The translations under genes and the position numbers were made by a program. A stretch of 45,602 bases of DNA from NCBI GenBank assembly GCA_001829415.1, contig MIBE01000010.1, positions 139,223-184,824 on the forward strand, given 5' to 3'. The notes under the pieces are model-generated. The model made no database searches and was not told the origin of the DNA. It was given only the letters and a program-made list of their open reading frames with translations. Positions 2,339 through 27,371 of the stretch are shown in pieces. The stretch is from Spirochaetes bacterium GWF1_51_8 (GTDB taxonomy: Bacteria; Spirochaetota; Brevinematia; Brevinematales; GWF1-51-8). Position 1 is the first letter of the stretch, and the number at the start of each line of letters is the position of its first letter.

Positions 2339-3172
2339 ATGTATCTTGAGAAGGAAGCCATCGACTTTTTCAGGCGTTACGACCTCGTCCTGCCGCCGTT
2401 AGCGCGCCGTCACGGCGACGATCCGTCGAGGATACTCGGCCGGAATCTCGAGTTCGAGCAGTACAACCTCTACCATCCCGGCGACGATATCCGCGATATC
2501 GACTGGAAGGTCTACGGCCGCACCGATAAGCTCTTCGTGAAGAACTACGGAAGCGACATTACCACCAACGTCCGTATCCTGATCGACAACAGCGAATCGA
2601 TGGCGTACCACGGAAAGGTCGAGATCGCGAAAAAGATCGCGGCGATCATGGCTTACCTGCTCCATTCACGGAAAGCCGGTGTCTGGGTATCGACAGTCAA
2701 CTCGGAATACCGCGACATGGGGCGTCTGACCCTCTCGAACCTCGAAGAGACTCTCTCACGGATCGGGACGTCGGGGGTCACCTCGATGGACGGCATCCCG
2801 TTTATCCGCGGCCGCATCGTGTTCCTGATCAGCGATCTCTGGGTGCACGGCCTCGATCCCGCGTTTTTTACCGAACGCCGCATTAACCTGATCCATATCC
2901 TGACGCCCGAGGAACGGGAACTCAGCCTGCACGGCAACCTCGAGATGATCGATATGGAGAACGGTAAAAAGCTCCAACTGATCCCGTCCACAATCCGCGA
3001 TCTCTACCGGACAAAGCTCCGCGAACGGACGGACGAACTACGCGCGAAGCTCTCCGAGGCGTTCCTGCTCTACGACCTCTTCACTACCGAGACGCCATAC
3101 TACACCGCGTTGAAACGTTACCTCGACAGGCTGAGCGCCGTGACCTCCAGGGGGAAACGATGGCGTTTTTAA
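2339..3172 (+). CDS. DUF58 domain protein (VWA-like)
   Basis: The 277-residue protein matches the DUF58 family over its whole length. The family core is visible around residues 42-56 (YHPGDDIRDIDWKVYG), followed by RILIDNSESM (about residues 82-91), a degenerate von Willebrand A-type MIDAS (DNSES instead of DxSxS). No membrane segment is seen, so it is probably cytoplasmic or membrane-associated. In many bacteria DUF58 genes lie between a MoxR AAA+ ATPase and BatA-type VWA membrane proteins, a set linked to envelope stress and aerotolerance. Here the next gene is BatA-like and overlaps by 13 nt, but no MoxR gene lies upstream: the preceding genes are on the other strand. The start has AAGGAAAG just upstream. 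Confidence 0.85.
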   Translation: MYLEKEAIDFFRRYDLVLPPLARRHGDDPSRILGRNLEFEQYNLYHPGDDIRDIDWKVYGRTDKLFVKNYGSDITTNVRILIDNSESMAYHGKVEIAKKIAAIMAYLLHSRKAGVWVSTVNSEYRDMGRLTLSNLEETLSRIGTSGVTSMDGIPFIRGRIVFLISDLWVHGLDPAFFTERRINLIHILTPEERELSLHGNLEMIDMENGKKLQLIPSTIRDLYRTKLRERTDELRAKLSEAFLLYDLFTTETPYYTALKRYLDRLSAVTSRGKRWRF

Positions 3173-4812
3173 ACACGTTCTTCCTGTACTTCCTCGCGCT
3201 CGCCGCCGTGCCCCTCGTGATCTCCCTCATCCTTAATATCAATAAAAAACGCGAGCAGTTCCCGTCGCTCGATTTTATCATGACTATCCTCAAACGCGAA
3301 CTGGAGAACAAACGGATTAGGATGCGGCTGAAACAAGTCCTGCGCGCGCTCGTGTTCCTCGCGATCATTCTGGCGTTCGCGTCCCCGGTAGTATCGCGGG
3401 GTGCGGACAGCGGCGAATGGACTGTGATCGTGGACGACTCGGTGAGTATGTCGCGTTTCGACCTCGGCGGAATAGTCCTCGGGCTGAAGGAGCAATACAA
3501 GATCGGCAAGGTCTATTTCGGCATGAAGCCTGTCCTGCCGGAAGCGCTGAACGAGGGTAAACTGCCCGCCGGGTACGACTTCTTCGGCGAGAGCACGTTC
3601 CCGGAAAAGATTGCCGCCGTGCTTGCGTCCGATCCCGCCGTGAGGCTCATTCTCATATCGGACGCGCAGAAGTCGTCGACCGGGGCGGCTTTCAAGCTCC
3701 CGTCGGGGACGGAAGAAGTGAAGTTCGTCCTGACCGCCGATACGAACAGAAATATCTATGTATCCGAGGTGTCGGTCTTCCCGATGGTCGGACTGCCGGA
3801 CGTCAAGTCGGTGCTGTCTGTCAAGATAGGCGGCAAGATCGTGCCGGGAGACAGGGTGAAGATCGCTATCGGCGGTGAAACCGTCCTCTCCGAGCAGGCG
3901 AAACCGGTGATCGAGATATCGCGCTTTGTCAATCAGAGCGGAATCGGGTTCGGTGAGGTCGTCCTCGAGGGCGACGGCTTCATCGCGGACAATACGAACT
4001 ATTTCCCGGTAGTCGCCTCAGCCGTGCCGTCGGTCTATTCCGATATCCAGTCACCGGTGATCGGACGCATCCTTTCGAGCCTCTTCCCGAAGTTCTATAT
4101 GACGCAGTCGCCCCACAACGCGGATTTGATCATGGCGGGTTACCTGCCCAAACAGATCGCGGATAAGCCGGTACTCCTCTTCTGCGAGGACGCCGACCGT
4201 TTCGGACGGGTGCTCCAGCGCGATTTCAAGATATTCTGCCAGTTCGCGAAAAAGTCTGTTACGGGCGATATCTCCTCGAAGTATTCCGTGCTCGAGATTG
4301 TCAAGGCGTTTTCGATCATGACGGCGTTCGAGCCGATCCCGGGCGAGGTGGCGGTCAAGGCCGGAGATACCCCGTTAGTCTATCAGCTGAATAACTATTC
4401 CGTGTTCAATTTTTCAATCGGCGCGAACGAAGACGTGCTGTCGTCCTCGGTGTTTCTCCTGCTTACAGTCAGCGAGATATTTATGGAGAACTTCCGGGGC
4501 AAGTACCTGATGAAAGAGAAGGCCGACGGGGTCTACTACGGCCTCGGCGGCACGATCATGTCTCCCGATACGCCGGGTGTGTACCGTTATAAGGACGACG
4601 GGAAGTTCCTGATCCGCAACACCGGGGCGGAGTCGGAGTTCGAGTTTTACTCGCCCGGAGAGATCGAAGACAAGCTGGGCGTATCGGCGGAGATCATCGG
4701 GGTCTCGGGGACGGATATTAAACTACCCTTTTTCCGGTGGGAATTCGCGTTGGCGCTGATGATATGCGCAGTCGTACTTTTGACCGCCGAAACCGTGCTG
4801 ATAAAAAGCTGA
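3160..4812 (+). CDS. BatA-like double-transmembrane protein with VWA-like core
   Basis: The 550-residue protein begins with the BatA-type N-terminal double-transmembrane region: a helix at about residues 3-26 (FLNTFFLYFLALAAVPLVIS), a basic loop (NINKKREQFPSLDF), and a second helix at about 60-80 (LRALVFLAIILAFASPVV). A VWA-like domain follows, with VIVDDSVSMSRFD as a MIDAS-like motif. A long extracytoplasmic region leads to a final helix near the C-terminus (WEFALALMICAVVLLTAETV). The gene overlaps DUF58 by 13 nt, so the two are translationally coupled. The family is associated with envelope homeostasis; the precise function here is not known. A separate promoter for the next gene begins 30 nt after the stop. 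Confidence 0.8.
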   Translation: MAFLNTFFLYFLALAAVPLVISLILNINKKREQFPSLDFIMTILKRELENKRIRMRLKQVLRALVFLAIILAFASPVVSRGADSGEWTVIVDDSVSMSRFDLGGIVLGLKEQYKIGKVYFGMKPVLPEALNEGKLPAGYDFFGESTFPEKIAAVLASDPAVRLILISDAQKSSTGAAFKLPSGTEEVKFVLTADTNRNIYVSEVSVFPMVGLPDVKSVLSVKIGGKIVPGDRVKIAIGGETVLSEQAKPVIEISRFVNQSGIGFGEVVLEGDGFIADNTNYFPVVASAVPSVYSDIQSPVIGRILSSLFPKFYMTQSPHNADLIMAGYLPKQIADKPVLLFCEDADRFGRVLQRDFKIFCQFAKKSVTGDISSKYSVLEIVKAFSIMTAFEPIPGEVAVKAGDTPLVYQLNNYSVFNFSIGANEDVLSSSVFLLLTVSEIFMENFRGKYLMKEKADGVYYGLGGTIMSPDTPGVYRYKDDGKFLIRNTGAESEFEFYSPGEIEDKLGVSAEIIGVSGTDIKLPFFRWEFALALMICAVVLLTAETVLIKS

Positions 4813-4841: not shown

Positions 4842-4869
4842 TTGACATAAATCCTTTCCGTTTTACAAT
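4842..4869 (+). promoter_or_regulatory. Strong sigma70-type promoter placed against the start codon
   Basis: TTGACA (4842-4847), a 16-nt spacer and TACAAT (4864-4869) form a near-consensus promoter. The -10 box ends 5 nt before the ATG at 4875 and no Shine-Dalgarno sequence is present, so the mRNA of the phosphatase gene would be leaderless or nearly so. Confidence 0.75.
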
Positions 4870-4874
4870 ATCGT

Positions 4875-7850
4875 ATGCGGAAAAATGAAAACAAAAAATC
4901 GTTACCCAGTCTCCTGACCGGCAAGACCGCTATCGCGGTGTATTTCCGAATCGGATTACTGGCCTTATTTGTCGTGATCTGGTTTCTGGGAAACCGGTAT
5001 TTTACCTATGCCAAACCCGAAGCATTGAAACCGCAGACCGTCGTGTTCGAACTGCCGTTCCCTCAGGAGATAGAAGAAAAGTACGAAATTATCACCGACG
5101 AAGACCGGGCGGAATACACTGTAGACCGTGTATTCGTATCGGGCTTTTTCTGCGACTGGAATCCCGCGAGCGAGAAGTACCGGATGAAAGAAGTCTCGCC
5201 CGGAAAATGGGAAGCGGTAATCCCGGTAGAGTACGGGGACAATCAGTATAAGTTCGTTGTTTACTTCACGGGAGATTCGCCTGTTTCGCAGATATGGATG
5301 CATAACAAAAACGCCGCGAAGAACCTCGACGACCAGTTCGGAGGACTGAACTCGGTGATCGAGGTGTCCAATCTCGGCGAATGGGAATTCGTATTCAATT
5401 TCTTGGTGATCGGCTTCATCGCGGTCATCCTGATCTATACGGTGCTTCAGCCGCTTCTCATGCTCGTACTCAGGCTTAGGCTGTCGTTCGGCCTCAAGAT
5501 GATTATCATGATCTTCCTCGTCGCGCTCCTGACGAACTCCGTGCTGATCTTTTATAACCTGCGCGAGAAAACCGAATCGATGAAGTATTTCCTCCGTGAG
5601 ACAGTCAGCCTGATCCATCTGTATATGACGGGCGAATGCGTCAATCTCTACGATCTCGATTCGGAAGAGACCAAGGCGCAGATAAAATCCGTCTTCGATA
5701 AATTTTTTGCCGCATCCCGGATGAGAATCGAAAAGGATAAGGTATCGAGCACACAGAACATGCTCGCGCAGATCACGGTGTTCGATAAAGACCTGAATAT
5801 CGTAGCGCTGGGGATGAGGCTTGAGGATATTCAGATAGTTCAGGATATTCTCGAAACAAATATTGCATCGAATATAGTGCAGATGAGTAACCTGAGTCTC
5901 AATCCCTCGTTATCCAATCTGGTTCTTTCCAACAGGCAGGCGACGAATATGATCGACCTGTACCGGAATTTTTTCTATATCGATATCATCAACTATGCCC
6001 AGAACCATCCCGATGAAAAAGACCGGGGGATTTTCTGGAAACTGCCCGACCCGTCGGAATCCCTCATCCAGCCTCTCCGGACCCTGAACCTTCACCCTTA
6101 TAATACGGTCCTCTATCCCATTGTCGTGGAAGGGGAGGTACTGGGTTACTACCTGGCGCTTTACTATATGTATATGCTTGCCGCCGATATGCAGAAAAAC
6201 CTTTACACAAACTTCCTCCTGCTCGGGATATCGATGTTGTTCTTCGTCATCCTTTCCCTCAATATCGGCGGGTTTATCAGCAAGTACCTGAACCAATTGA
6301 TCGAATGGACGAAGCATATTATCCGTGGAAATTTCGATATCGAAAAAAAGATCGAGACCCACGACGAGATCGAAGTACTGGCGAAGAACTTTGACGTACT
6401 CCGTCTCACTGTCGGGGCGAACCTCCGCGACCTGAAACTGATCAACGAGGTGACTGCGGTGCTCAACACGATCAACCAGATCGACGAGCTCTACGCCGTA
6501 TTCCTCTATTTTATCACCGCGAACTTCGGATTGGGATACAACCGCGCGGCGATATTCCTAATCGATAAGGACGAGCTTGTGGGGCATTACGCGATCGGGA
6601 TGCTCGATACCGGCGAAGTGGAAAAGAAGTTCGGAAGCATGAAAAACTACCGGGATTTCAAACTCGATCTGCGGGAGTTTGTCGCGGACTACAAGAACTA
6701 TATCGCGAATACGGACAGCGAATTTCTCCGCAGGCTCAGAGAATTCAAGATACCCAAGTCCGAAACGTCGGTACTCTGGCGGATTGTTCAGCGGAACTGC
6801 TTCCAGTATATCGCCAAGTCTTCCGGGGATGAGTCCGAAAGCGATACAGCGATACGAAAAAGCCTTAACCTGACCGATTATCTCCTCATGCCGATCCTCA
6901 AGGGCAAGGAAGCGGTCGGAGTACTCCTTGTCGATAATATCTTCCACGAACGGTCTGTCAAAGACCACGATATCAACCAGCTTCAAATCCTCCTGAACGA
7001 TTTCGCGGCCAACCTTGAGAACAGCTACACGATTCTCAACCTCGAACGGCTGGTGCTCGAACGGACCGCCGAGCTCAACAAAACGAACGAGGCCCTCAAG
7101 CTGAAAGATAGGGTGATCACGACCGACCTCAATATCGCGAAACGTATCCAGCAGAGCGTCCTGCCGAGGAAGATCGGCCGGATGGGCGCGCTCAGCTTAG
7201 ATATCCGTTATATCCCGATGAGCGAAGTGGGCGGGGATTATTATGATATCACCGAAATTTCCGGCGGGGTGATCCGCGTGTTTATCGCGGATGCCACCGG
7301 GCACGGTGTGCAGGCGGCGCTGATCACGATGATGATCAAGGGCGAATACGACAGGCTGAAAAATGTCATCGCGAGTCCCGGCGAACTGATCGAGAAGATC
7401 AATAACGGATTTATGCTCGATAGCCGTCATTTATCCTTCTTTTTTACATGCATGGTTGCCGATATATATATCAAAGAAAAAAAGATCGTATTTGCTTCGG
7501 CCGGGCACCCGGCGCAGTATATTCTTTCCAAAGGGAAGCGGACTGTATTGCCGCCCACCGGAAAGGTCGCCGGAATCATCGAGGGCTCGATCTACCAGAC
7601 ACGCGAAACGGAATTCAAGCCCGGCGACAAGCTTCTGCTGTTCACCGACGGCCTCTTCGAGGAATTCAATCCGGCGGACGAGGAACTGGGCGAGGACAGG
7701 ATGTGCGAGATACTGACCGGCCTTTGGAATAAGTCTCCCGTGGAATTGAACGATGCCGCGCTCGCCGAGATGCGGAAGTTTCTCGACGGTGCCGGGATGA
7801 ACGACGACTTGACTCTTCTCTGCGTTTCTTTTGATAAAGATCATTCTTAA
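4875..7850 (+). CDS. Membrane SpoIIE-type (PP2C) phosphatase with extracytoplasmic CBM48-like domain, HAMP and GAF
   Basis: This 991-residue sensor phosphatase has: TM1 (about 19-41); an extracytoplasmic E-set/CBM48-like domain (about 83-165; VFVSGFFCDWNP and YKFVVYF match the glycogen-binding pattern); TM2 (172-198) and TM3 (205-228); a second extracytoplasmic sensor region (230-445); TM4 (450-470); HAMP (470-520); GAF (530-715); a coiled coil; and a C-terminal PP2C/SpoIIE serine phosphatase (about 750-988). The metal-binding motifs are intact: GGDYYD, ADATGHG, TDGLFEEF and NDDLT. Four helices place both sensor regions outside and HAMP-GAF-PP2C inside. The family dephosphorylates anti-sigma-factor antagonists (STAS proteins); the actual substrate is unknown. 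The following receiver, TPR/CBM48 and kinase genes suggest one signalling unit. The CBM48 assignment rests on motif pattern only. Confidence 0.88.
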   Translation: MRKNENKKSLPSLLTGKTAIAVYFRIGLLALFVVIWFLGNRYFTYAKPEALKPQTVVFELPFPQEIEEKYEIITDEDRAEYTVDRVFVSGFFCDWNPASEKYRMKEVSPGKWEAVIPVEYGDNQYKFVVYFTGDSPVSQIWMHNKNAAKNLDDQFGGLNSVIEVSNLGEWEFVFNFLVIGFIAVILIYTVLQPLLMLVLRLRLSFGLKMIIMIFLVALLTNSVLIFYNLREKTESMKYFLRETVSLIHLYMTGECVNLYDLDSEETKAQIKSVFDKFFAASRMRIEKDKVSSTQNMLAQITVFDKDLNIVALGMRLEDIQIVQDILETNIASNIVQMSNLSLNPSLSNLVLSNRQATNMIDLYRNFFYIDIINYAQNHPDEKDRGIFWKLPDPSESLIQPLRTLNLHPYNTVLYPIVVEGEVLGYYLALYYMYMLAADMQKNLYTNFLLLGISMLFFVILSLNIGGFISKYLNQLIEWTKHIIRGNFDIEKKIETHDEIEVLAKNFDVLRLTVGANLRDLKLINEVTAVLNTINQIDELYAVFLYFITANFGLGYNRAAIFLIDKDELVGHYAIGMLDTGEVEKKFGSMKNYRDFKLDLREFVADYKNYIANTDSEFLRRLREFKIPKSETSVLWRIVQRNCFQYIAKSSGDESESDTAIRKSLNLTDYLLMPILKGKEAVGVLLVDNIFHERSVKDHDINQLQILLNDFAANLENSYTILNLERLVLERTAELNKTNEALKLKDRVITTDLNIAKRIQQSVLPRKIGRMGALSLDIRYIPMSEVGGDYYDITEISGGVIRVFIADATGHGVQAALITMMIKGEYDRLKNVIASPGELIEKINNGFMLDSRHLSFFFTCMVADIYIKEKKIVFASAGHPAQYILSKGKRTVLPPTGKVAGIIEGSIYQTRETEFKPGDKLLLFTDGLFEEFNPADEELGEDRMCEILTGLWNKSPVELNDAALAEMRKFLDGAGMNDDLTLLCVSFDKDHS

Positions 7851-7859
7851 TGGTATAAT
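7831..7859 (+). promoter_or_regulatory. Sigma70-type promoter for the receiver gene and following block
   Basis: TTGATA (7831-7836), a 17-nt spacer and a perfect TATAAT (7854-7859) lie at the 3' end of the phosphatase gene. The predicted transcript starts about 7866 and carries a GGGGAG ribosome-binding site before the ATG at 7880. Confidence 0.7.
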
Positions 7860-7879
7860 GGATTATCGGGGAGTATAAG

Positions 7880-8251
7880 ATGAAAAAAGTACTGGCTGTG
7901 GACGACAAACCGAATATTATCATGTTGATCAAATCGAAACTGAAGGCTAACGGGTTCGAGGTGGTGACCGCCTATAACGGCGCGTCCGCGTTGGAACTCG
8001 CGGCCAGCGAAAAACCCGACCTGATTCTCCTCGATATCATGATGCCCACGATGGACGGATTCGAGGTATTCCAGAAGCTGAAAGACGGACAAGCCACCGC
8101 GAACATCCCGGTGATCTTCCTGACCGCTTCGGGGCAGCGATCGGACGAGAGCAAGGCGATGGAGATGGGCGCGAAGCATTTCCTGACAAAGCCGTTCTCG
8201 CCCAATCACCTTCTGGATATAGTCAACAAAGTCCTTGCCGGGGGAGAATAG
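7880..8251 (+). CDS. Stand-alone receiver (CheY-like) response regulator
   Basis: The 123-residue protein is a single receiver domain with no output domain. The acidic pair lies in LAVDDKPN (D8, D9), the phospho-acceptor is D52 (ILLDIMMP), the switch Thr lies in IFLTAS and the conserved Lys in TKPF. It would accept phosphoryl groups from a histidine kinase; the two kinases encoded at 10630 and 12421 are obvious candidates. The gene has its own consensus-like promoter inside the 3' end of the phosphatase gene and a GGGGAG ribosome-binding site. The next gene begins 29 nt after the stop with no terminator between them. The partner of the phosphorylated form (phosphatase, motor or other) cannot be read from the sequence. 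Confidence 0.92.
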   Translation: MKKVLAVDDKPNIIMLIKSKLKANGFEVVTAYNGASALELAASEKPDLILLDIMMPTMDGFEVFQKLKDGQATANIPVIFLTASGQRSDESKAMEMGAKHFLTKPFSPNHLLDIVNKVLAGGE

Positions 8252-8280
8252 CCCGGTATTCCTTTCATGCAGGCGGGATT

Positions 8281-10620
8281 ATGAAGAAATGCGTCACTCT
8301 ACTCTCCTTGATGTTCATGAGCCTGTGTTTTGTCGGAACGGTATTTCCCGATCAGCAGAAATCGATGCAGTGGATCGGCAAGGGGCTGACCTTTCAAAAA
8401 ACCGACCCATACCGCGCGAGTCTCGAGTTTAAAAAGGCTATCGAGAGTTCGCCGCAATGGGACTATCCGTATATTCTTATCGCCGATCTCTATAATAAAA
8501 ATTTTTGCCTGTCCGAGGCGGTACGGAACTATGAAAAAGCGCTGAAGCTCGGACTGTCGCAGAAGGGGCTGGAGTACCAGGTGTATTCCGAGCTCGGTCT
8601 TCTGTATATCAAAACGGGCGAGTACGCGAAGGCTAAAGATACGATCAAAGCCGCGCAGAAGAAAAAGCCCGGCAAGCTCGATCAGGCCGAGGCCGACCTA
8701 TCGCTCCTCATCGAAACCGTCACCATGTTAAGCAACTCGCCGTTCGGCGCGATCCCCGTCCTGAAGGAAGTGCTCGAGCGCCATCCCGACTGGGTGTCGG
8801 TGTATGTACATCTTGCGGCCGCAGTGGGGCTGATGGGTGATATGAACGCGGCGGTGGTGGCGTTGAAGAACGCCCTGAAGTTCAACCCGCTCAAATGTAT
8901 CGCGCTCGCCGATGAGACCGCCGGAAGCGGCAAGAACGCGTTCTACTTCATCAGGCATCCCGCGAATAACGGGCATTGGGAACTCACCCTGAGCCTTCCC
9001 GCCGGGACTTACGCATACCGCCTTTTCCTGAATTACCGTTATCCCGACGAGAAAGCCGCGCTCGACCCGGAGAACAAAGAGGTGTGGGAGAAATCGCCCG
9101 GTCTCTTCCTGAACACATTCGGTATCAAACAGAACTGGGATAAAAAGACATTCCATTACCTCACGTTTCCGACCGACCCCGTTTTTATCTCTATTGAAAA
9201 TAAGATCGCCGTGCTTCGGCTGGCGTCGCTGACAAACAAATACCCCGAACCCGGGAAGTATTTTGTCAATCCGGCCGTGAACTCGAAGTACACGACCAAT
9301 ATCACGATGAGCTATTACGACCCGAACGCCTACGCGGTGTGGGCGGTAGGTACGTTCAACCAGTGGGGCAAGGAGAAGGGCTCGGGGAATGTCGAGGAGA
9401 TATCGCCCAAGTACTACTGGCCGCTCCACGGCCCGGACGAGAACGGGGTGTGGACGATTACCACTACCGCCGACCTAAATTTCCACGAATATGCCTATCT
9501 TGTGAACGAGGACTACTATGCGAAAGACCCGAATGTCAATCATCTTTCATTCAAACGGCTGACGAACACGCAGAACATTATCGGCTCCGCCAATTCGGTC
9601 ATGGGTTTCGAAGACCTTTATCTTGTCGATTTCACGTTCTACAGGAAGAACGCCACGACCGTGTGGCTTGTCGGAGATTTCAATTACTGGGGCGGAACAT
9701 ACTACACGGTCAAAAAAATACTTCCCGGCTACTATGTCGAGATGCTGGACCCGGACAAGGACGGGAACTGGCACGCGCCGGTGTACCTCACGAAGGGAAA
9801 GCATATCTTCCGCTTTGTGGTGAACGGGACGTCATGGGTAGTCGATCCGAAGCAGAAGACGGACAGCCAGAACCTGAGCGAGGCGAATAACATCATCATA
9901 GTGGGTGAGGAAACCGGAAACATTCAGGCGAATGTGACGAATAAACCCGTGGTCGATCCCGACGGAAAGGCCGAAGTGGAGTTCAGTTACCTGAACCCGA
10001 AGGCGCAGTCGGTTTGGCTGGTGGGAGATTTTAATTACTGGGGCGGGAAGACGACCGACCTCAAGGAACTGAGTCCCGATTTTTACTACGCGATGACCGG
10101 CCCGGACGAAGCCGGATACTGGAAGGTTAAAACGAGACTCCCTGTCGGAGCGTATTACTATAAGTACGTGGTGGATGGAAAAAACCTGCTGACCGACAAG
10201 GAAAAGAAAATGGTCAAGGTGCAGGCCGGGGCGTCGTCGACCTATAACAATGTCGTCTATATCGGGCTCGAGACGTTCCCCAAGGGCGAATACTACGGCA
10301 TGGATAAGGACTTCGGGGTAGAGACTGTATTCAAATACACCGCTGAAGCCCAGGACATCACGAATGTCTGGGTGATCGGCGATTTCAATATCTGGGGCGG
10401 CAAGTACCTGTTTAAGGATTTCATCGAGGGTTACTATTACCCGATGTCGAAAACGGCGGTCAAGGGCGAATGGATTGTGAAGGTAAAACTGACGCCCGGG
10501 CATTACCAGTACCGTTACGTGCTCAACGGTAAAAAAGAGATCACAGATAAAAATTCCGTCCTGACGGAAAAAGATACCTATAATAAGGCCGTATCGGCCG
10601 TAGAAGTCGTAACAGAGTAG
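8281..10620 (+). CDS. Exported TPR protein with four to five CBM48-like repeats
   Basis: The 779-residue protein starts with a signal peptide (about 1-22). Residues 25-205 hold about five TPR helices pairs (SLEFKKAIESSPQWDYPYIL, EAVRNYEKALKLG, GEYAKAKDTIKAAQKKKP). Then come repeated E-set/CBM48-like domains at about 345-425, 453-535, 567-650 and 682-770, plus a degenerate copy at about 217-300. Each has a VWLVGDFNYWGG-type strand pair and ends in a YYYKYVVDGK-type strand, the hallmark of glycogen-binding CBM48/AMPK-beta domains. The repeats are about 110 residues apart. It probably binds alpha-glucan or another ligand outside the cytoplasm, or acts as a scaffold; no catalytic domain is present. 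It lies between a receiver gene and a histidine kinase gene (9-nt gap). The related domain in the phosphatase at 4875 suggests a shared ligand. Confidence 0.82.
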   Translation: MKKCVTLLSLMFMSLCFVGTVFPDQQKSMQWIGKGLTFQKTDPYRASLEFKKAIESSPQWDYPYILIADLYNKNFCLSEAVRNYEKALKLGLSQKGLEYQVYSELGLLYIKTGEYAKAKDTIKAAQKKKPGKLDQAEADLSLLIETVTMLSNSPFGAIPVLKEVLERHPDWVSVYVHLAAAVGLMGDMNAAVVALKNALKFNPLKCIALADETAGSGKNAFYFIRHPANNGHWELTLSLPAGTYAYRLFLNYRYPDEKAALDPENKEVWEKSPGLFLNTFGIKQNWDKKTFHYLTFPTDPVFISIENKIAVLRLASLTNKYPEPGKYFVNPAVNSKYTTNITMSYYDPNAYAVWAVGTFNQWGKEKGSGNVEEISPKYYWPLHGPDENGVWTITTTADLNFHEYAYLVNEDYYAKDPNVNHLSFKRLTNTQNIIGSANSVMGFEDLYLVDFTFYRKNATTVWLVGDFNYWGGTYYTVKKILPGYYVEMLDPDKDGNWHAPVYLTKGKHIFRFVVNGTSWVVDPKQKTDSQNLSEANNIIIVGEETGNIQANVTNKPVVDPDGKAEVEFSYLNPKAQSVWLVGDFNYWGGKTTDLKELSPDFYYAMTGPDEAGYWKVKTRLPVGAYYYKYVVDGKNLLTDKEKKMVKVQAGASSTYNNVVYIGLETFPKGEYYGMDKDFGVETVFKYTAEAQDITNVWVIGDFNIWGGKYLFKDFIEGYYYPMSKTAVKGEWIVKVKLTPGHYQYRYVLNGKKEITDKNSVLTEKDTYNKAVSAVEVVTE

Positions 10621-10629
10621 GAAGGCAAT

Positions 10630-12411
10630 GTGAAGATCCGGATCCAGTACAAAATTTTCGCCCTGTTCATCCTGATAGTCGCGCCGCTGGTGGGAACGCT
10701 CTACCTCGGAATCAACAGGCTGTTTGTCGAGAACTTCTCCGAGTACCTGAACAGCAGGGTGGAACGGTCGGTCGAGACTGTCGAGAGCACGCTCGGCAAT
10801 ACTCTCTTTATGAACATGCAGTTCATCAAGGCGTTCGGTACGATAGCGGAACTGAACTCCGCGCTCGAGAACAATGAACTCTTAGTGTTCCCCTACATCC
10901 TCGAGAAGTACCGTTCGGATTACGGGTTCGACAGCCTTCAGCTTTACTCCACATCGGGAGAAATACAAGCCGAGGCGGGAAGAAAGTTTCCCGTCGAGAC
11001 GACGCTGTTCCTGAAAAACTACGGCGGCTCGGGTGCGTTCTCGGGAATAGTCGAACGCGGCGGGAATCTCTATTTCACAGCGAGCTCATATAGCGGGAAC
11101 AAGAAGTCTGTTATTGTCGGGAAAACCCTTCTCGACGACAGAACTGCTTTAAAGATATCCGAAACTATCGGCGCGAACGTAATAATCTACACGGAAGGTA
11201 AGGTAACCTCTTCGCTTTTATCCGGGTCGTCTGACGGGACGAACCTGATGATCTGGGCGGAACGGCAGAGCGCGGAAGTGATGGAATCGACAAACAGGCT
11301 GATTGTGCATGACGAGGAGTTCGGGCTGTCTATCGCGAAATTTCCGATGAAGGATTTCATGGGGAAGCCCGTGGGCGCTATCGTGATCGGGATGTCGTCG
11401 TCGTGGATACTCGAATCGCAGAAGCAGCAGCAGGAACTGATCCTCCGCATCTCGATAGCGGGCTTACTCTTCGCGATGATCATGGCGTTCATCTTCGCGC
11501 GCGGGATTACCAATCCCCTCCGCAAGCTGACGTTCTGGGCCGAGAAGGTGAGCGAGGGCGACCTCGACTATCAGGTGAAGATACGAGCGCATGATGAGGT
11601 CCACGACCTTTCGCACGCGTTCTCGATCATGATCGGCAACCTGAAAAAAAGTTTCGACGAAATCCATAGACAGAACATCGAATTGAAGAAACTCGACCAA
11701 CTGAAAAGCGACTTGATCTCTAATGTGTCTCATGAACTGAGGACGCCGATTACGACGATCTTCGGTTCGGTGGAATTCCTCCTTTCCGGCGAGATCGACG
11801 GCGATCCGGATACGGTGCGCGAATTCTACGGCTCCATCTTTAACGATATCCGCGTGCTGAAAAAGATCGTGAATAATTTCATCATGGTTTCGGTGATCGA
11901 CAAGGATGAGTTTTTCGAGAAGGACATCGAACTAAAGGGCTTCCTGACGGAATTCAGCGGGCAGGAAATCGATACCGACCTGCGTCCGCTCGCGTCGGAG
12001 AAAAATATCGCGATAGAAGTCCCGGGTCTGAAACATGCGGGGAAGAAAAAAATCGTCATGCGCTCGGACGAGACCTACCTGCGGCATGTTCTCTTCGAAC
12101 TTGTCCACAACGCTGTAATCTACAACCGTGAGGGCGGTAAGGTGAAACTTGGAGTCGAGACCGGCGCGGACGGATTGTCGTTCAGGGTGGAGGATAACGG
12201 GATAGGGATATCCGAGAGCGAAGCGGGAAAGATATTCGACCGTTTTTATAGAGTGGTGTCCGAGCGGACTTACGAGGTCTCCGGAATCGGGCTCGGGCTT
12301 TCGGTCGTCCGGCAGATTTGCGAACGGCTGGGCTTGAAAATAGTCGTCGAGAGCGAAACCGGTAAGGGCACGGCGATCATTATCACCGGAATAAGCTATA
12401 CACAAGAGTAA
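10630..12411 (+). CDS. Membrane sensor histidine kinase (Cache-like sensor, HAMP, HisKA, HATPase_c)
   Basis: The 593-residue protein starts at a GTG (10630) preceded by AGGAAGG; the overlapping ATG at 10628 is followed at once by a stop. TM1 (about 8-28) and TM2 (about 272-295) flank a roughly 240-residue extracytoplasmic sensor resembling a Cache domain (LFLKNYGGSGAFSGIVERGG, VIVGKTLLDDR). A HAMP linker (ITNPLRKLTFWAEKVSEGDL), a HisKA helix with the H-box NVSHELRTP near residue 370, and a HATPase_c domain (N-box NAVIYN, DNGIGIS, GIGLGLSV) follow. It would autophosphorylate on the H-box His and transfer to a receiver, possibly the one at 7880. It lies in a tight run with the TPR/CBM48 gene upstream (9 nt) and another kinase downstream (9 nt). 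Confidence 0.93.
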   Translation: MKIRIQYKIFALFILIVAPLVGTLYLGINRLFVENFSEYLNSRVERSVETVESTLGNTLFMNMQFIKAFGTIAELNSALENNELLVFPYILEKYRSDYGFDSLQLYSTSGEIQAEAGRKFPVETTLFLKNYGGSGAFSGIVERGGNLYFTASSYSGNKKSVIVGKTLLDDRTALKISETIGANVIIYTEGKVTSSLLSGSSDGTNLMIWAERQSAEVMESTNRLIVHDEEFGLSIAKFPMKDFMGKPVGAIVIGMSSSWILESQKQQQELILRISIAGLLFAMIMAFIFARGITNPLRKLTFWAEKVSEGDLDYQVKIRAHDEVHDLSHAFSIMIGNLKKSFDEIHRQNIELKKLDQLKSDLISNVSHELRTPITTIFGSVEFLLSGEIDGDPDTVREFYGSIFNDIRVLKKIVNNFIMVSVIDKDEFFEKDIELKGFLTEFSGQEIDTDLRPLASEKNIAIEVPGLKHAGKKKIVMRSDETYLRHVLFELVHNAVIYNREGGKVKLGVETGADGLSFRVEDNGIGISESEAGKIFDRFYRVVSERTYEVSGIGLGLSVVRQICERLGLKIVVESETGKGTAIIITGISYTQE

Positions 12412-12420
12412 GGGCGGGAT

Positions 12421-15051
12421 ATGTTTTTACTGTTTATCGATATAGTCATCGTACTTGTCTTCTGTTTCCTCGGTATCCGCATTCTGGTGCGGAACCGCAG
12501 GAATCCCGTGAACATCGTGTTTTCAACTATCACCCTTTTCAGTGTCATTTTTTTAATTAATGTCGATGTGATGCTATTATCGGGCGACCCCGCCGCGATT
12601 CTATTCTGCGACCGGATGAGTGTTTTCCTCGGATCGCTATTGACCTGCTCTATCTTTATCCTTTCAGCGTTATTCCCTGTCCGGATTCTCAAGCTCAAAA
12701 CGGTACTGATTGTCCTGCTAACTCTCCCGCTCGTCGCGGTCGGGATATACGCGCTCCTGACCCCGTTCACGATCATCGAGGCGAGTGTAATCGGCGGTAC
12801 GCTGATCGAGAAAACCGGCGGCGGATTCTATATCTGGTTCGGGATGATGCTGGTCTATACCGTTGCGTCGCTCATACTGTTTGTCCGCAGTTACCGGACT
12901 ACCAGATACGCCCGTTACCGTTCGCGTCTCCTCCTGATATTCTGGGGAATCATCCTTTCGACGGTCATCATCCTTTTCCTTTCGGTGCTACTCCCCGAAT
13001 TGGGTAATTCCGACTTTTATCATGCGGGGGTTTCCATTGCCGCCGTGATATTTATTCTCTCGATCTCCTACGCGGTCGTTTCGGAAAAACTGATCGATAT
13101 CAATAACCTCATTCTCGATATCCTGAAATGGGTTCTCACTATCGCGATGCTCGCCGGATTTGTGACATTGAGCGTCGTCGTAATCGAGCCGATGCTCGAC
13201 AAGACGGAAGTCTATAAAAAGATCGGACTCTACTGTATCGACGCGCTCGTGTTCTATTTCTTCATGCAGTTGTTCATGCCGACCATTGAAGGCTGGTTCA
13301 AGAGAAATAGAAATAGCCTCCAAAAAGTTTTCGATCAATTTATTGAAGAACTGCTGAAGGTGCAGAAGACGAACGAGCTGATCCTTAAAACAGTCTCCAC
13401 TGTTAAAACCGCGCTCGGCTTATCGAAGATGGAGTTCTTTCTATTCAAAAACCACGCGTTGACCTCGCTCGATTCTCCGGGGAAGGATACGAAAATTCCC
13501 GCAGGCGTAGTGAACTATTTTGTCGGGCATAGCGGAGTCCTCGAACTGGAAGAATTTTTAATCGAGCACGACAGCATGGGAGGGGATACGCAGATCAAGA
13601 CCTTTCTCGAGAAACACGGCGCGGAGATCGCGGTGCCGCTTGTTTACGGCGACAGCCTGATCGGCGTGATCGTGATCGGCGAGAAACGGGACAAGTCGAG
13701 TCTCAATATGCACGAATTCCGCTTCCTGCAGGAACTCAGGAAGTATCTGACTATCGCGCTCAATAACGCCATCCTTGTCGACAACCTCGGCGAGATCGTG
13801 CAGGACAAGACCGAGGAGATGCAGGGACAGAAGCTCGCCCTGGAATACGCTCTCAACACGAACGAACGCGATATGTATATCTTCCGTTCGATCAACGAGA
13901 TTTCGCGCCTCCTCCTGTCGATCAACTACTATTCCGCCAAAGACCTTTATCATACTATCGCTGATATCTTCCCGGGTTTCATCAATATCGAGAATGTCGC
14001 GGTATACGGATACTCGAAAAAGGACGGGGTGTTCAGCCTGCTTGTCGCGAACAATATCGACCTCAATGTCAAGGAGTATCCGAAGACGGCCGCATACTCC
14101 CCGAGATGTATTCTCGGGATGGTGGTCGAGACCGGGAAATCCGTGTTCATCGGCGACATCCATGAGAATAAGGGATGCGATCCCGAGGAACTCGCAAAGT
14201 TCGGTGTGGTGAAGTCCGTGATGGCGATCCCGATCAAGGTGCGCGGCGAGATCAGCGCAATCGTCCTTTTTGTCGATAAAATCGATAACGATACGTTCGA
14301 TAAGTACGACTTCTATTTTGTGAACACGGTCTCGCACCTTCTCAATGTCTCCCTCGAACGGGTGGTGATCTTCGAGGACAAACTGAAGTCCGAACGTTTC
14401 ACCGCGATCGGCCAGATGGCAGCCAACATCATCCACGATATCAAGAATCCGATGGCCGGGATTATCGGTTTCGCGGAATGCCTCTCGTCGCCGGAGTTTT
14501 CCGAGGAGGACAAGGCCGAGTTCGTCAAGATGATTATTTCCGAATCGGAACGCCTTGTCGCGCTGGCGTCGGAAATCCTTGAGTACACCCGCGGCGAGAT
14601 CAAGATCAAGAAGTCGGAGGTCAAGATACCGGAGTTCATGGACGAGGTCGACAGCCTGCTCCGGATGATGTTCAAGGAGCGCGGGATCAGGTTCTTTATG
14701 AATGTCGGCTATGACGGGACGATCTCGTTCGACGGCGACCGCATGAAACGGGTGTTTTACAATATCGCGCATAACGCGATGGACGCGATGAAGAACGACG
14801 GCGAGTTTACGCTGAATGTGAGTCTCAAGGGCGATAGGGCGGTATTTTCGCTGAAGGATAACGGGAAGGGCATCCCGAAGGAAATCCGCGACTCGCTTTT
14901 CGAGCCGTTCGTGACCTACGGGAAGCACGGCGGGACGGGGCTGGGGCTCGCGATCACGCGTGAGATCGTGCATCTCCATAAGGGCGAGATTACGTTCGAG
15001 ACCGCCGCAAACACCGGGACGACATTTTATATCGAACTGCCGCTGGAATGA
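12421..15051 (+). CDS. Sensor histidine kinase with multi-TM N-terminus and two GAF domains
   Basis: The 876-residue protein has seven or more hydrophobic segments in residues 1-290, resembling the 7TM-type N-terminal region of histidine kinases. A first GAF-like domain (about 310-455), a coiled coil (KTEEMQGQKLALEYALN), a second GAF domain (about 480-650) and the transmitter follow. The H-box is IIHDIKNP near residue 672, and the ATPase motifs are NIAHNAMDAM, DNGKGIP and GGTGLGLAI. HDxKNP-type H-boxes are typical of NtrB-like/HPK4 kinases. The gene begins 9 nt after the preceding kinase, so the two are co-transcribed. It carries no receiver of its own. The signals for the membrane and GAF domains are unknown. 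Confidence 0.9.
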   Translation: MFLLFIDIVIVLVFCFLGIRILVRNRRNPVNIVFSTITLFSVIFLINVDVMLLSGDPAAILFCDRMSVFLGSLLTCSIFILSALFPVRILKLKTVLIVLLTLPLVAVGIYALLTPFTIIEASVIGGTLIEKTGGGFYIWFGMMLVYTVASLILFVRSYRTTRYARYRSRLLLIFWGIILSTVIILFLSVLLPELGNSDFYHAGVSIAAVIFILSISYAVVSEKLIDINNLILDILKWVLTIAMLAGFVTLSVVVIEPMLDKTEVYKKIGLYCIDALVFYFFMQLFMPTIEGWFKRNRNSLQKVFDQFIEELLKVQKTNELILKTVSTVKTALGLSKMEFFLFKNHALTSLDSPGKDTKIPAGVVNYFVGHSGVLELEEFLIEHDSMGGDTQIKTFLEKHGAEIAVPLVYGDSLIGVIVIGEKRDKSSLNMHEFRFLQELRKYLTIALNNAILVDNLGEIVQDKTEEMQGQKLALEYALNTNERDMYIFRSINEISRLLLSINYYSAKDLYHTIADIFPGFINIENVAVYGYSKKDGVFSLLVANNIDLNVKEYPKTAAYSPRCILGMVVETGKSVFIGDIHENKGCDPEELAKFGVVKSVMAIPIKVRGEISAIVLFVDKIDNDTFDKYDFYFVNTVSHLLNVSLERVVIFEDKLKSERFTAIGQMAANIIHDIKNPMAGIIGFAECLSSPEFSEEDKAEFVKMIISESERLVALASEILEYTRGEIKIKKSEVKIPEFMDEVDSLLRMMFKERGIRFFMNVGYDGTISFDGDRMKRVFYNIAHNAMDAMKNDGEFTLNVSLKGDRAVFSLKDNGKGIPKEIRDSLFEPFVTYGKHGGTGLGLAITREIVHLHKGEITFETAANTGTTFYIELPLE

Positions 15052-22575: not shown

Positions 22576-24237
22576 TTAAAACCGGACATAGTTCTCATCG
22601 TCGGCATCTTCGGGATTTTTCATATCGTACTCGAATCCCTTCGGGTTCTGGTTGGGGTGAAGCGCGACTTTGGTTTGAGTCGGTTTCGGTAACGGTTTAG
22701 GCCCGACATGCGGGATATGGGTCACCGGTCTCCTTACCTGCTCGGTATCGTCAAGCTTGAAGAACTGCATGGTTTCCTTCAACGCCTGAGACTGCGCGGT
22801 CACTTCCTCCGCGGTAGAGGCGAGTTCCTCCGCTGACGACGCGTTCTGCTGAACGACGCTATTGAGCTGCTGGATGGCGTTGTTGATCTGCTGAACGCCG
22901 CTGCTCTGTTCGCCGCTCGCGGCGTTGATCTCCGAGACGAGCTCGGCGGTCTTCTGGATATCCGGCACAAGCCGTGTGAGCATTTCTCCCGCGAGCACGG
23001 CGATCTCGACACTGGTCTTGGCGAGTTTGCCGATTTCAGTCGCGGAAATCTGGCTGCGTTCGGCGAGCTTCTGGACACCCGACGCTACTACCGCGAAGCC
23101 CTTGCCGTGCTCTCCCGCGCGCGCCGCTTCTATCGATGCGTTCAGCGAGAGGAGGTTCGTCTGACGCGCGATCTCCTGCACGATCGATATCTTTTCGGCG
23201 ATCTCGTTCATCGCCGTTACAGTCTTCTTCACAATCGAGCCGCTCTCGTTGGCGTCGGTGGACGATTTCCCTGCGATCTTTTCTGTCTGGCTCGCGTTGT
23301 CCGCGTTCTGGCGGATTGTCGCGGTCATCTCTTCGATAGACGACGAGATTTCCTCTACAGACGACGCCTGCTCGGTCGTTCTCTGCGACAAGTCCTGGCT
23401 CGACTGGGATACCTGCAATGTCGCCGAGGCGATATTCTCCGAACCGGTTACGATATCCGTCGCGATCTTGTTCAGGTCCTGAATCATGGCGTTCATCCCA
23501 ACCAGCATTCCGCCGATCTCGTCCTTACTGCTCAGGTACTTCGGATCGATCTTGACTGTCAGGTCGCCCCTCGCCACACGTTCGAGGACGCCGACCGAGT
23601 AATTAACCGGCTTCGTGATACTGCGGGTGATCACCATCGCGACAATCACCGATATCAGGATGATGACGACCGCGATGATGACGCTGATCGTAATGATCGA
23701 AGTTATTGTTTCACCGATTGCTTTCTGATCGTCTGCCAGCTCCTGGTTCAGGCTGGCTTCTATTTTATCGAGAGGTTCTTTGAACTCCGCGACAAGATTA
23801 TCGATTTTATCGTCAAGTACCCGGACATCATCCATATTGTCCTTTCCCGAAAAGATCATCGGGAAAAGTTTGTCCTCGACAATAGAAACAATCTGTGCAA
23901 AGTACAATTCCACGTCGGCTTCGAGCGTTTTTTCCTCGTCGGAATCGACAATCTCTTTGAGTGTTTTCAGGTCGGAGACAGCCTCGGACTTCTTAGCGGC
24001 CCAGTTTTTCATAGTCTCATCCTGATCCCGGTTGATGATCGCATCGCCGATGATCTGGTACATTTCCGGGCCTAAGGCCTGGATTTCAGTGATCAGTACC
24101 GCGTCTGCCGCTCGGTCCGCGAATAGGTCTTTCTTCTCCTGAATCACCTGTAATTGCAGATAGTTATAAACCACCAGCCCTACGAATAGAACGACCAGCA
24201 GACCGAACCCAAAAAGCAGTTTTTGACCTATTTTCAT
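22576..24237 (-). CDS. Methyl-accepting chemotaxis protein with C-terminal CheR-docking pentapeptide
   Basis: The 553-residue receptor has TM1 (about 7-28), an extracytoplasmic four-helix-bundle-type region rich in helix formers (29-185), TM2 (about 187-209), HAMP (about 210-262) and the cytoplasmic signalling domain with the conserved tip region [16 protein letters not shown]. After the methylation helices a Pro-rich flexible linker leads to the C-terminal residues ENYVRF. NYVRF fits the x-[HFYW]-x-x-[HFYW] pentapeptide that tethers CheR. The ATG at 24237 overlaps the cheA stop by 4 nt. It is the only receptor in the window and, by its place in the operon, probably the main one for this CheA. 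The ligand is unknown. Confidence 0.95.
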
Positions 24238-26372
24238 GGCAATCCTCCGTTAACGTCTTTTTTATTCGTCAATCCGTTTATTTGCGTTTCAGCGTTCTTC
24301 GCGATTCTTGCGACATCGAGTATCAGCGCGATAGAGCCGTCGCCGAGAATAGTCGCGCCCGATATCTCGTCGATCTTCGCGCCGACCTTGTCGAGGTTCT
24401 TGATCACCGTCTGGTACTGGCCGATCACATGGTCGACGATCAGCCCGAGTTTCCGTTCGTCGATATGCACGACGACCATCTGCACGATATTCGGCGGGTC
24501 GCCGGATATTTCAAAAAGCTTCCGAAGGTTGATATACGGGATGATCTCGCCGCGTACCAGCGCGATCTCTTTGCCTTCGGACTTGCCCCGGATCTCGTCG
24601 GTCAAGTCCATGCATTCCTCGATGATGGACAGGTTGATTACAAAGCGTTCGCTCCCGACTTGGAGAAGAAGGCCGTCGATAATCGCGAGGGTCAACGGGA
24701 TGCGTAACGTGATCGTCGTACCATTGCCGTACTCGCTTTCGATATCGACATTACCGCGCAGCCGTTCGACATTACCCTTGACCACATCCATTCCTACACC
24801 GCGCCCGGAGATGTTCGTTGCCTTGTCCGACGTCGACAAGCCGGGCAGGAAGATCAACGAGAGGGTTTCCTTCCGCGTGAGTTCGGCATCGGGTGAGATC
24901 AGTCCCTTCTCGGCCGCTTTCGCGCGGATTTTATCCAAATCTATCCCCGCGCCGTCGTCGGTGATCTTGATATGTACGAATCCCCCGGAATGTTCGGCGC
25001 TGAGGACGATTGTCCCTTTCGCGGGCTTTCCCGACTGTTTCCTTACATCCGGCGTCTCGATACCGTGATCGATACTGTTCCGTAGGATATGAAGTAACGG
25101 GTCTTTGAGCGATTCGATCACCGTTTTGTCGAGTTCGGTTTCGGAGCCGAGCGTGACCAGTTCGACGTCCTTCCCGAGCTCCCCTGAGAGGTCGCGGACA
25201 AGCCGGTAGAATCCCGCGAATGTTTCGCCGATAGGCACCATGCGGATTTCCATCGCGTTGTCGCGCAGTTCCGTGATCAGCCGTTCGAAGTGCTCGGAGA
25301 TGGAAACAAGCTCGATTTCGTCGTTACGCGAGGAGTACTGCGCGAGCGACGCTTGTAACGTCACGAGTTCACCCACAAGGTTGACCAAGTGATCGAGCTT
25401 CTCGTACTTGACGCGGATAGTGGATGTCCTGCTTTGCTCCTGCCGTTTCAGCCGCAGGTCGCGGACATACTTCTGTTCTATGATTGCCGATTCAATGTTT
25501 TCTTCACCGAGGATGCCTTCTTTTTTGGCGATCTCGCCGAATTTCATCTGTTCGCCGAGGATTTTTTTCAAGTCCTGGGCGGAAATCTCACCGCGCTCGA
25601 AAAGGATGTCGCCGATCAGTTTATAGTCTGTGTCGATATCGAGGTATCCCTCGTCGTCGATCGTATCGATCGAGAGGGTACAGTCGCCCTCGACGAAAAT
25701 AAAAACGTCGCGGATCGCGTTCAGGTCTTTATCCGTTGTGAGTATGATATCCCATGCGAGATATGAGCGCTCGGGGTCGAGCTTTTCGAGACTAGTCAGC
25801 CCGCTGACACGGACGATGGCCTCCATCCTGCCGAAACTGTTGAGCTCCTCGAGCAGGGTTAACGGATTGATCCCGCGCGTGAAGATTTCCGGGTTGGGGC
25901 GGAATGTGATCCTGTATGTCCGCTTCTCGAAAGCGACATCTTCCTTTATCGTGATCGTTTCGGGTTCGGGAACTGCGGCTGCGGCGTCCGGCTGAGCGAT
26001 GGATAGTTTCTGAAAATCGCGGATCAGTTCTTCGGTGTGGGCTTGAGTGACCGGATCGGGCTGGGGATTGTCGATCAGGAAACGGATATAATCGCGCGAA
26101 GCGAGGGTCATATCGATAATCTGTTTCGTCACCGCGAGTTTACCCTGGCGGATCCTGTCGAAAAGTGATTCTATTTCATGGGTAAAACGCACCACTTCGT
26201 CAAACTCGAACATACTGCCTGAGCCTTTGATCGTATGAAGACAGCGGAAAACCGCGTCGATCAGTTCCTTGTCGCCCGGATCGCGTTCCAGATTGAGCAG
26301 GAGCGATTCCATGTTCTCGAGTATCTCGTAGGCTTCTTCCCGGTAAGTTTCGGCGGCTGAGGAGGTATTCAT
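24234..26372 (-). CDS. cheA: Chemotaxis histidine kinase CheA with MshEN-like insert
   Basis: The start at 26372 (712 residues) is preferred over an upstream start at 26408: it has GGGGAGG upstream and overlaps the STAS stop as ATGA. P1 carries the phosphorylated His46 ([10 protein letters not shown]). A P2-like domain follows (about 148-238). Residues about 249-303 contain two 24-25-residue motifs ([14 protein letters not shown]... and [13 protein letters not shown]...), each ending in EQ, that match the c-di-GMP-binding MshEN/T2SSE-N pattern. P3 dimerisation begins about 315. The P4 ATPase has [18 protein letters not shown] and GRGVGMD; P5 is the CheW-like C-terminus. It phosphorylates CheY and CheB. 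The MshEN-like assignment is by motif only. Confidence 0.96.
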
Positions 26373-26713
26373 TTTCCGGCCTCCCCGAGCATGTGTTGAA
26401 AGATACACTCGTCGTGGTGGCAGGCCTCGCAGATCAGGTGCCTGCGGAATCCCGATATCGCGAAGAGATGGAGGACGTCGCGGGGAAAATTGACGATTTC
26501 GAGGGGTTTTGCCTCGCGCAGGTACGAACGGCAGGCGCTGATGAGAATTTGTAAAAAGGACAAGTCCGCATGGACGATTTCCGAGCCTTCGATCTGTACG
26601 GCCGTCACCGTGGAATCGGCGAGGAGTTTGAGTAACGCATCCCGCAAAGCAGAAGCACGCTCGATAGTCGCGTTTCCGCGGATTCTAAAGATAACTTTTC
26701 GTTCCCCCGGCAT
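26369..26713 (-). CDS. STAS-domain protein in the chemotaxis operon
   Basis: The 114-residue form starting at ATG 26713 is chosen because GGAAGTG lies just upstream; an upstream ATG at 26737 has no ribosome-binding site. The fold signature is STAS/anti-sigma-factor antagonist: KVIFRIRGNATIERA, then VQIEGSEIVHADLSFLQIL, where classical members have D-S-S-G-L. Here the motif reads D50-L51-S52-F53, so the usual phosphorylated Ser is replaced by Leu and only the second Ser remains. The C-terminus has a Cys/His cluster, C95-x2-C98-H-H-x2-C103, that could bind a metal or be redox-active. Its stop overlaps the cheA start (ATGA). A SpoIIE-type phosphatase is encoded upstream at 27372-28820 and is a possible partner. 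Confidence 0.75.
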   Translation of the reverse strand: MPGERKVIFRIRGNATIERASALRDALLKLLADSTVTAVQIEGSEIVHADLSFLQILISACRSYLREAKPLEIVNFPRDVLHLFAISGFRRHLICEACHHDECIFQHMLGEAGK

Positions 26714-26737
26714 ATTCACTTCCTTGTTTGGCCGCAT

Positions 26738-26863
26738 TTAATGACCGCTCCTTCGACAGGTTCAGGACAAGCTGTTCTCGGCGGAACGGCAACGGCCATT
26801 CGTCGTTTTTTTATTATACTTAATTATCAATGTTCCGAATGCAAAACAGTTTTTACATCACCC
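26738..26863. other. Intergenic gap with a dispersed-repeat fragment and minus-strand -10 box
   Basis: The stretch at 26751-26775 (CTCCTTCGACAGGTTCAGGA, then CAAGC) resembles a short sequence that recurs between genes in many environmental genomes. On the minus strand a TATAAT box occupies 26813-26818, with no convincing -35, and could start transcription of the STAS-cheA part of the operon separately from cheY. Confidence 0.35.
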
Positions 26864-27244: not shown

Positions 27245-27371
27245 TAAATCCCCCTGTATATTTTTTACGTTTAACAAGCATAGTTATATTATATAGGGAA
27301 GGCGAAAATGACCATAGGGGAATCCCTGAAAATCAGCTTCGAAAACGATTATTCTACATAATCACTATGGT

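Follow-up and report, generated by a model that had tools for sequence, protein, structure and literature searches.

Why would a membrane phosphatase and a neighboring exported protein of one bacterium both place outside the membrane a domain of the type that binds glycogen in AMPK? This question is raised by positions 4875 to 15051 of a 45,602-nucleotide stretch (the window) of contig MIBE01000010.1 from Spirochaetes bacterium GWF1_51_8, a deep-subsurface member of the Spirochaetota with a genome of 3.54 Mb. In the open reading frame list, this interval is filled by five genes, all on the forward strand, which encode a SpoIIE phosphatase, a receiver, an exported protein of tetratricopeptide repeats and CBM48 domains (the TPR/CBM48 protein), and two histidine kinases, HK1 and HK2 (Table 1). 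A first-pass annotation of the sequence had taken them for a sensory cluster in which the TPR/CBM48 protein presents or competes for a glucan or other ligand. Having surveyed 393 spirochaete genomes, all from the Spirochaetota, we regard the cluster with moderate confidence as an alpha-glucan sensor of the cell envelope, with two arms that read the same polymer.

A CBM48 receptor family with four outputs

To describe the input of the phosphatase, we combined hydropathy with profile searches. The protein has transmembrane (TM) helices at residues ~20-38, 173-191, 209-227, and 447-465, and residues 40 to 172, which include a CBM48/AMPK-beta domain, lie outside. Weak HAMP (residues 466 to 510) and weak GAF (residues 661 to 712) matches precede the SpoIIE domain, whose metal-binding aspartate motifs of the PPM family (GGDYYD, ADATGHG, TDG, and DDLT) are intact. 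The CBM48 domain scores 28.3 bits together with its neighbors in the genome search, and a four-species profile of it finds AMPK beta-1 and beta-2 as its sole, weak PDB matches (E = 0.02). An extracytoplasmic CBM48 domain as the input of the phosphatase, as the first-pass annotation had it, thus agrees with topology and with AMPK-beta matches that in Pfam stay below the cut-off.

With a profile that covers the module as far as TM3, we retrieved nine full-length members from the 393 genomes, set apart by a wide gap in score (226 bits, compared with 60 for CBM48 proteins that stand alone), and a search of one order added a further three. Four outputs are attached to this module: GAF-SpoIIE in the genus of the window; HAMP-SpoIIE in two genomes (G025 and G037, both of genus g16); a C-terminal LuxR-type (GerE) helix-turn-helix (HTH) in four (G083, G380, G401, and G406); and, in a paralogue from a sister species (locus L107, genome G002), HisKA, HATPase, receiver (REC), and SpoIIE domains joined to the receptor in one chain. 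A receptor copy in G404 is cut by the contig end. Between receptors with different outputs, hhalign matches the input modules over their whole length, second sensor and TM4 included (99.8%, E = 1e-27, and 99.6%, E = 2e-24); the HK1 sensor aligned with the phosphatase module as a negative control gave 0.8%, that is, no homology. These alignments indicate that the four-helix input module (TM-CBM48-TM-TM-sensor-TM) is one homologous receptor family with four outputs.

In g16, a gene for a small CBM48 lipoprotein overlaps the start of the receptor gene, and this lipoprotein keeps W100, K/R126, and W133 (AMPK numbering), as if binding had shifted to a soluble partner. The pattern of an exported CBM48 protein with a membrane sensor, seen in the window, thus recurs here with other parts.

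Evidence for an alpha-glucan as the probable ligand

The sugar is contacted in AMPK by W100, K126, W133, and N150, and binding is lost or strongly reduced when residues of this kind are mutated (PMC4032982, PMC2642990). By alignment, their counterparts in the phosphatase are W95, K126, W141, and N159. All four are invariant in six divergent receptors, although full conservation is limited to 10 of the 88 columns of their alignment (P ~9e-5).

The LuxR-type receptor gene stands 87 to 97 nt upstream of a GH13 gene, in the same orientation, in G380, G401, and G406, and the surroundings of the pair otherwise differ among these genomes. The GH13 protein has a glucodextranase C-terminal domain and a signal-peptide-like (lipoprotein-like) start; two of these glucodextranase-type enzymes that we compared are 59% identical. 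In G380, a CBM48 pullulanase-like gene is nearby too, yet that genome has only 16 GH13 matches. Together, the invariant contacts and the GH13 neighbors make an alpha-glucan a well-supported candidate for the receptor ligand, in line with the ligand class first proposed. Because the same sensor is reused with several outputs, one kind of which is found repeatedly beside an amylase gene, the family most likely reports starch- or glycogen-like polymers to the cell.

The exported protein bears the same domain type. It has a signal peptide and no further TM helix, and in the CBM48/AMPK-beta families of Pfam (PF16561, PF02922) it matches AMPK1_CBM (7.8e-21 in three stretches; 74.5 bits against a cut-off of 26.8) and CBM_48 (5.7e-14). 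At least four CBM48 copies had been noted at first pass; Pfam and alignment give four and a degenerate fifth. All five members of the TPR/CBM48 family have both CBM48 and TPR matches. The motif G-x-F-N-x-W, originally assigned to both proteins, occurs letter for letter in the TPR/CBM48 protein (GTFNQWG, GDFNYWG, GDFNYWG, and GDFNIWG), whereas the phosphatase has a variant of it (SGFFCDWN). When the phosphatase domain was compared with these copies profile to profile, the match reached only E = 5e-4 and 32% probability, and we therefore rely on the Pfam and AMPK alignments.

That the contacts are lost in copies d1, d2, and d5 would fit another explanation, in which the outside CBM48 domains serve as structural spacers of the E-set type or for protein docking, the TPR/CBM48 protein acts as a scaffold in the envelope, and what is sensed is envelope stress or a protein interaction, not glucan. 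The change of three of the four contacts in the g16 receptors and the BatA/DUF58 genes upstream in all four species of the genus could be read in the same way. We consider this explanation quite unlikely: all four sugar contacts are held invariant across the six divergent receptors, a glucodextranase gene adjoins the receptor in three genomes, and at least one copy of the TPR/CBM48 protein keeps the site in both lineages that encode it (d3 in the window; d3 and d4, each with W, K, W, and N, in G042).

The TPR/CBM48 protein is paired with the HK1 sensor

The five-gene order is intact in all four species of the Brevinematales-like genus of the window (G000, the host genome, to G003; one split over two contigs), which include Brevinematales bacterium isolate DeMMO6_14. 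Identity across the cluster is ~60-66% among the four species, and phosphatase orthologues in G001 to G003 are 65-70% identical. Because the order is kept in the three other species, the cluster is more than a chance arrangement. Intergenic gaps are 29, 29, 9, and 9 nt. Open reading frames, Pfam, and synteny thus confirm the set of genes described at first pass. Pfam bears out every domain named for the cluster, the CBM48 of the phosphatase falling below the cut-off (HATPase, ~1e-24 in both kinases; SpoIIE and Response_reg, Table 1). Catalytic motifs are intact in the phosphatase and in both kinases, and the classical two-component features are present: HisKA with its H box and HATPase with N, G1, and G2 boxes in each kinase, and a receiver.

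Outside the genus, a different association emerges. A TPR/CBM48 profile finds 5 of the 393 genomes and an HK1-sensor profile finds exactly the same five, with the two genes adjacent in every case and across two classes. One of the five, G042, is from a different class and has a cassette in the order STAS/SiaC-like protein, TPR/CBM48 protein (34% identical), and SpoIIE phosphatase. The N terminus of this phosphatase is homologous to the HK1 sensor (BLASTP, 29% over 293 columns, E = 2e-45). Compared with the window, G042 keeps the sensory pair and has a phosphatase in place of the kinase and STAS in place of the receiver in the small upstream gene; enzyme and presumed substrate appear to have been swapped together, receiver with kinase and STAS with SpoIIE. 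The HK1 sensor itself is not dCache_3 (17.2 bits against a cut-off of 25.7), and we found no relative of it in the PDB.

By these distributions, the strict partner of the TPR/CBM48 protein is the HK1 sensor domain and not the phosphatase. Because enzyme and upstream gene change as a matched pair in G042, the best available evidence points to the receiver as the partner of HK1 and to the TPR/CBM48 protein as a component of the sensing side. The first-pass annotation had instead tied the TPR/CBM48 protein to the phosphatase. Its genes do occur together within the genus; elsewhere in the genomes surveyed the two are never found together, the TPR/CBM48 protein accompanying the HK1 sensor and CBM48 receptors occurring without a TPR protein. 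We rejected a phylum-wide unit of TPR/CBM48 protein and phosphatase on these separate distributions.

Such a separation is also what one would expect of two adjacent systems, a CBM48 phosphatase unit and a receiver-TPR/CBM48-HK1-HK2 unit, which would share a ligand class by descent and no common pathway. Each unit has its own conserved promoter (P1 and P2), G042 has the TPR/CBM48 protein and HK1 sensor without a CBM48 receptor, and receptors elsewhere lack the TPR protein. We nevertheless think this arrangement unlikely, given the strict gene order in four species at the identities stated above, the hybrid receptor-kinase-receiver-SpoIIE protein, which joins both chemistries, and the link of the same sensory pair to SpoIIE in G042. 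Because L107 fuses receptor, kinase, receiver, and SpoIIE, it suggests that kinase, receiver, and phosphatase can act in one pathway.

A two-armed model and its difficulties

We infer the steps between ligand binding and output as follows. Starch, glycogen, or maltodextrin in the periplasm would bind the receptor CBM48 through W95, K126, W141, and N159; binding would shift the helices and the HAMP-GAF linker and so switch the PPM phosphatase. In the first arm, the phosphatase would dephosphorylate a STAS switch protein encoded elsewhere in the genome. In the second, the soluble TPR/CBM48 protein, glucan-loaded or unloaded at the intact copy d3, would dock on the HK1 sensor and thereby set the action of HK1 on the receiver. 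It is plausible that the TPR/CBM48 protein presents or competes for the ligand, as first suggested.

More tentatively, we propose a new alpha-glucan receptor family of the Spirochaetota whose CBM48 module has been exchanged among SpoIIE, hybrid kinase-SpoIIE, and membrane LuxR outputs, beside an unrelated cassette in which the TPR/CBM48 protein would be a dedicated polymer-binding coreceptor and enzyme and substrate have been co-swapped. In the window, both would read the same polymer, as an extracellular analogue of AMPK glycogen sensing.

Several observations weigh against the two-armed model. The phosphatase CBM48 (residues 84 to 166) matches AMPK1_CBM at 8.6e-5 and 23.1 bits, below the Pfam cut-off of 26.8, and AlphaFold2 gave mean predicted local distance difference test scores of 43 for the TPR/CBM48 protein and 44.5 for phosphatase residues 1 to 470, from two-sequence alignments only, values too low for the models to inform on the fold. 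Both g16 receptors have R, F, and R at K126, W133, and N150, and so not every receptor need bind glucan. No amylase gene borders the cluster, and none lies on its contig among the GH13 matches listed. The phosphatase and the TPR/CBM48 protein occur together in one genus only, and the presence of two conserved promoters suggests separate transcription of the phosphatase gene and the rest of the cluster. Finally, no STAS gene adjoins the phosphatase or sits in the cluster; its substrate would be among the 19 STAS matches of the genome, which also has 33 SpoIIE, 19 CBM48, and 40 GH13 matches.

The nearest STAS gene of the window (26369-26737) stands beside a different SpoIIE gene. This second SpoIIE phosphatase, its STAS neighbor, and a CheA-like kinase gene occupy positions 24234 to 28820 on the reverse strand, a set that suggests partner switching tied to chemotaxis.

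Among NCBIfam models, the nearest to the phosphatase domain is SiaA (E = 1.5e-19). Assignment to SiaA itself was rejected, since the protein reaches 70 of the 700 bits required by NF038263, over its C-terminal part only. This far sub-cut-off resemblance, the SiaC/STAS-like partner in the G042 cassette, and the lack of a GH13 neighbor in the window (among the matches listed) could be taken to mean that the cell senses not food starch but a glucan of its own in the periplasm or at the surface (osmoregulated or capsule-like), and that the system governs envelope or biofilm behavior as SiaABC does. We find this improbable, considering that AMPK-type contacts recognize alpha-1,4-glucan and that the host has many GH13 genes.

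Promoters and upstream genes

Promoter counts across the cluster are at chance level, and the case for P1 and P2 therefore depends on their conservation. Because the phosphatase ATG comes only 6 nt past the -10 element of P1 in the window, its mRNA is probably leaderless. The phosphatase gene and the run from receiver to HK2, which P2 heads, may form two separate transcripts. Directly upstream of the cluster (2339-4812), DUF58 and BatA-like genes are found in all four species; they are probably a separate unit because P1 intervenes.

TABLE 1 Features of the sensory cluster, in window coordinates
Feature	Position	Strand	Evidence
Promoter P1 of phosphatase gene, TTGACA-16-TACAAT	4842..4869	+	Both hexamers in 4/4 species, spacer variable
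CBM48-receptor SpoIIE phosphatase, 991 aa	4875..7850	+	Pfam SpoIIE 4.1e-41, motifs, orthologues
Shared receptor module, residues ~20-465 (TM1, CBM48, TM2, TM3, second extracytoplasmic sensor, TM4)	4932..6269	+	Topology, hhalign
Extracytoplasmic CBM48/AMPK-beta domain, residues 84-166	5124..5372	+	Pfam, PDB profile search, AMPK alignment
SpoIIE/PPM catalytic domain, residues 797-986	7263..7832	+	Pfam
Promoter P2, TTGATA-17-TATAAT, extended -10, heading receiver to HK2	7831..7859	+	Conserved in 3/3 species compared
Receiver, single-domain, 123 aa	7880..8251	+	Pfam Response_reg 1.7e-31
Exported TPR/CBM48 protein, 779 aa (signal peptide, TPR repeats, then CBM48 copies)	8281..10620	+	Pfam, topology
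CBM48 copy d1, degenerate, residues ~219-290	8935..9150	+	X25/CBM-like match at 228-255; alignment
CBM48 copy d2, contact site mostly lost	9292..9594	+	Alignment
CBM48 copy d3, contact site kept as W, R, W, N	9616..9918	+	Pfam, alignment
CBM48 copy d4, contact site partly kept (W, K, L, N)	9961..10275	+	Pfam, alignment
CBM48 copy d5, contact site mostly lost	10315..10617	+	Alignment
HK1 histidine kinase, 593 aa, sensor partnered with TPR/CBM48 protein	10630..12411	+	Pfam
HK1 sensor region (TM, ~240 aa outside, TM)	10630..11460	+	BLASTP to G042 SpoIIE phosphatase N terminus
HK2 histidine kinase, 876 aa (multi-TM, 7TM-like; GAF, HisKA, HATPase)	12421..15051	+	Pfam, topology

Other CBM48 proteins

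CBM48 domains were also seen at other loci. In the host genome, an extracytoplasmic function (ECF) sigma factor gene overlaps the gene of a one-TM protein with an extracytoplasmic CBM48 (L074:5307-6294, contig C49; AMPK1_CBM, 5.7e-8); the latter resembles an anti-sigma factor with a CBM48 domain, which would add another CBM48 signaling route to this genome. A second ECF sigma locus there encodes the sigma factor, a one-TM protein, and an exported CBM48 protein (L070:4887-8150, contig C74). Tandem small exported CBM48-like proteins or lipoproteins are encoded at L073:4892-6776 and L071:6326-7154 of the same genome, one run lying behind an RND-type efflux gene. At L111:11054-13063 and L113:4459-6624, CBM48 is fused to an apparent outer-membrane beta-barrel; these proteins may form a spirochaete family of porins that bind glucan. 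Exported esterase-like proteins with N- or C-terminal CBM48 are found at L068:5731-6801, L114:6473-7612, and L151:371-1633 (confirmed by Pfam for L068 only).

Relation to known systems and significance

Pairs of a periplasmic binding protein and a histidine kinase include LuxP/LuxQ and TorT/TorS. The window resembles them in that a soluble exported ligand-binding protein is genetically tied to a kinase sensor domain; it differs in that the soluble partner is a TPR/CBM48 protein and not of the periplasmic-binding-protein fold, and in that this pair is found coupled to a phosphatase as well. The phosphatase is like SiaA/RsbU-type SpoIIE (PPM) sensor phosphatases in its membrane sensor, its HAMP, and the expectation that it acts on a STAS protein, but unlike them in having no adjacent STAS gene and in its distance from the SiaA model. 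We know of no CBM48 input in phosphatases of this type.

With the AMPK/SNF1 beta glycogen-binding domain (CBM48, PF16561), the receptors share the domain family, the four contacts in most members, and the principle that a glucan-binding module regulates a phosphorylation-type signaling enzyme. AMPK is a cytoplasmic kinase; the spirochaete domain, by contrast, belongs to bacterial receptors whose outputs are exchangeable, lies on the outer side of the membrane, and carries a longer loop ahead of W133.

RsgI anti-sigma factors of Clostridium thermocellum use CBM3, CBM42, and PA14 sensors (PMC12203970). As in RsgI, an extracytoplasmic carbohydrate-binding module would sense polysaccharide and signal across the membrane to regulate polysaccharidases; unlike RsgI, which has one TM helix and releases sigma-I through proteolysis, the receptors cross the membrane with four helices, contain a second sensor, and signal through SpoIIE, kinase, or LuxR outputs. 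Membership in the RsgI family was rejected on this architecture: the outputs are SpoIIE, kinase, or GerE HTH, and there is no RsgI N-terminal domain or sigma-I partner. A search of the open-access literature, which leaves most subscription journals outside, returned nothing relevant on CBM48 in bacterial sensors or anti-sigma factors; on carbohydrate-binding modules in sensing, it returned only RsgI-type anti-sigma factors, which differ in architecture and mechanism (PMC12203970). Each part of the system is thus of a known kind, and the combination and the swapping of outputs were not found described in that literature.

In eukaryotic cells, CBM48 makes a signaling enzyme, AMPK, a gauge of internal glycogen. 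In these bacteria, the domain appears to have been put to use outside the membrane, its sugar contacts unchanged, as an input for phosphatases, kinases, and transcription factors. From the way in which enzyme and substrate change together while the sensory pair stays the same, a testable wiring rule follows: a receiver for a kinase and STAS for a phosphatase. The LuxR-type receptors beside an amylase gene would lend themselves to a simple reporter test with one gene. Such a system would give the Spirochaetota, among them uncultured subsurface lineages with many GH13 enzymes, a named route to sense starch or glycogen.

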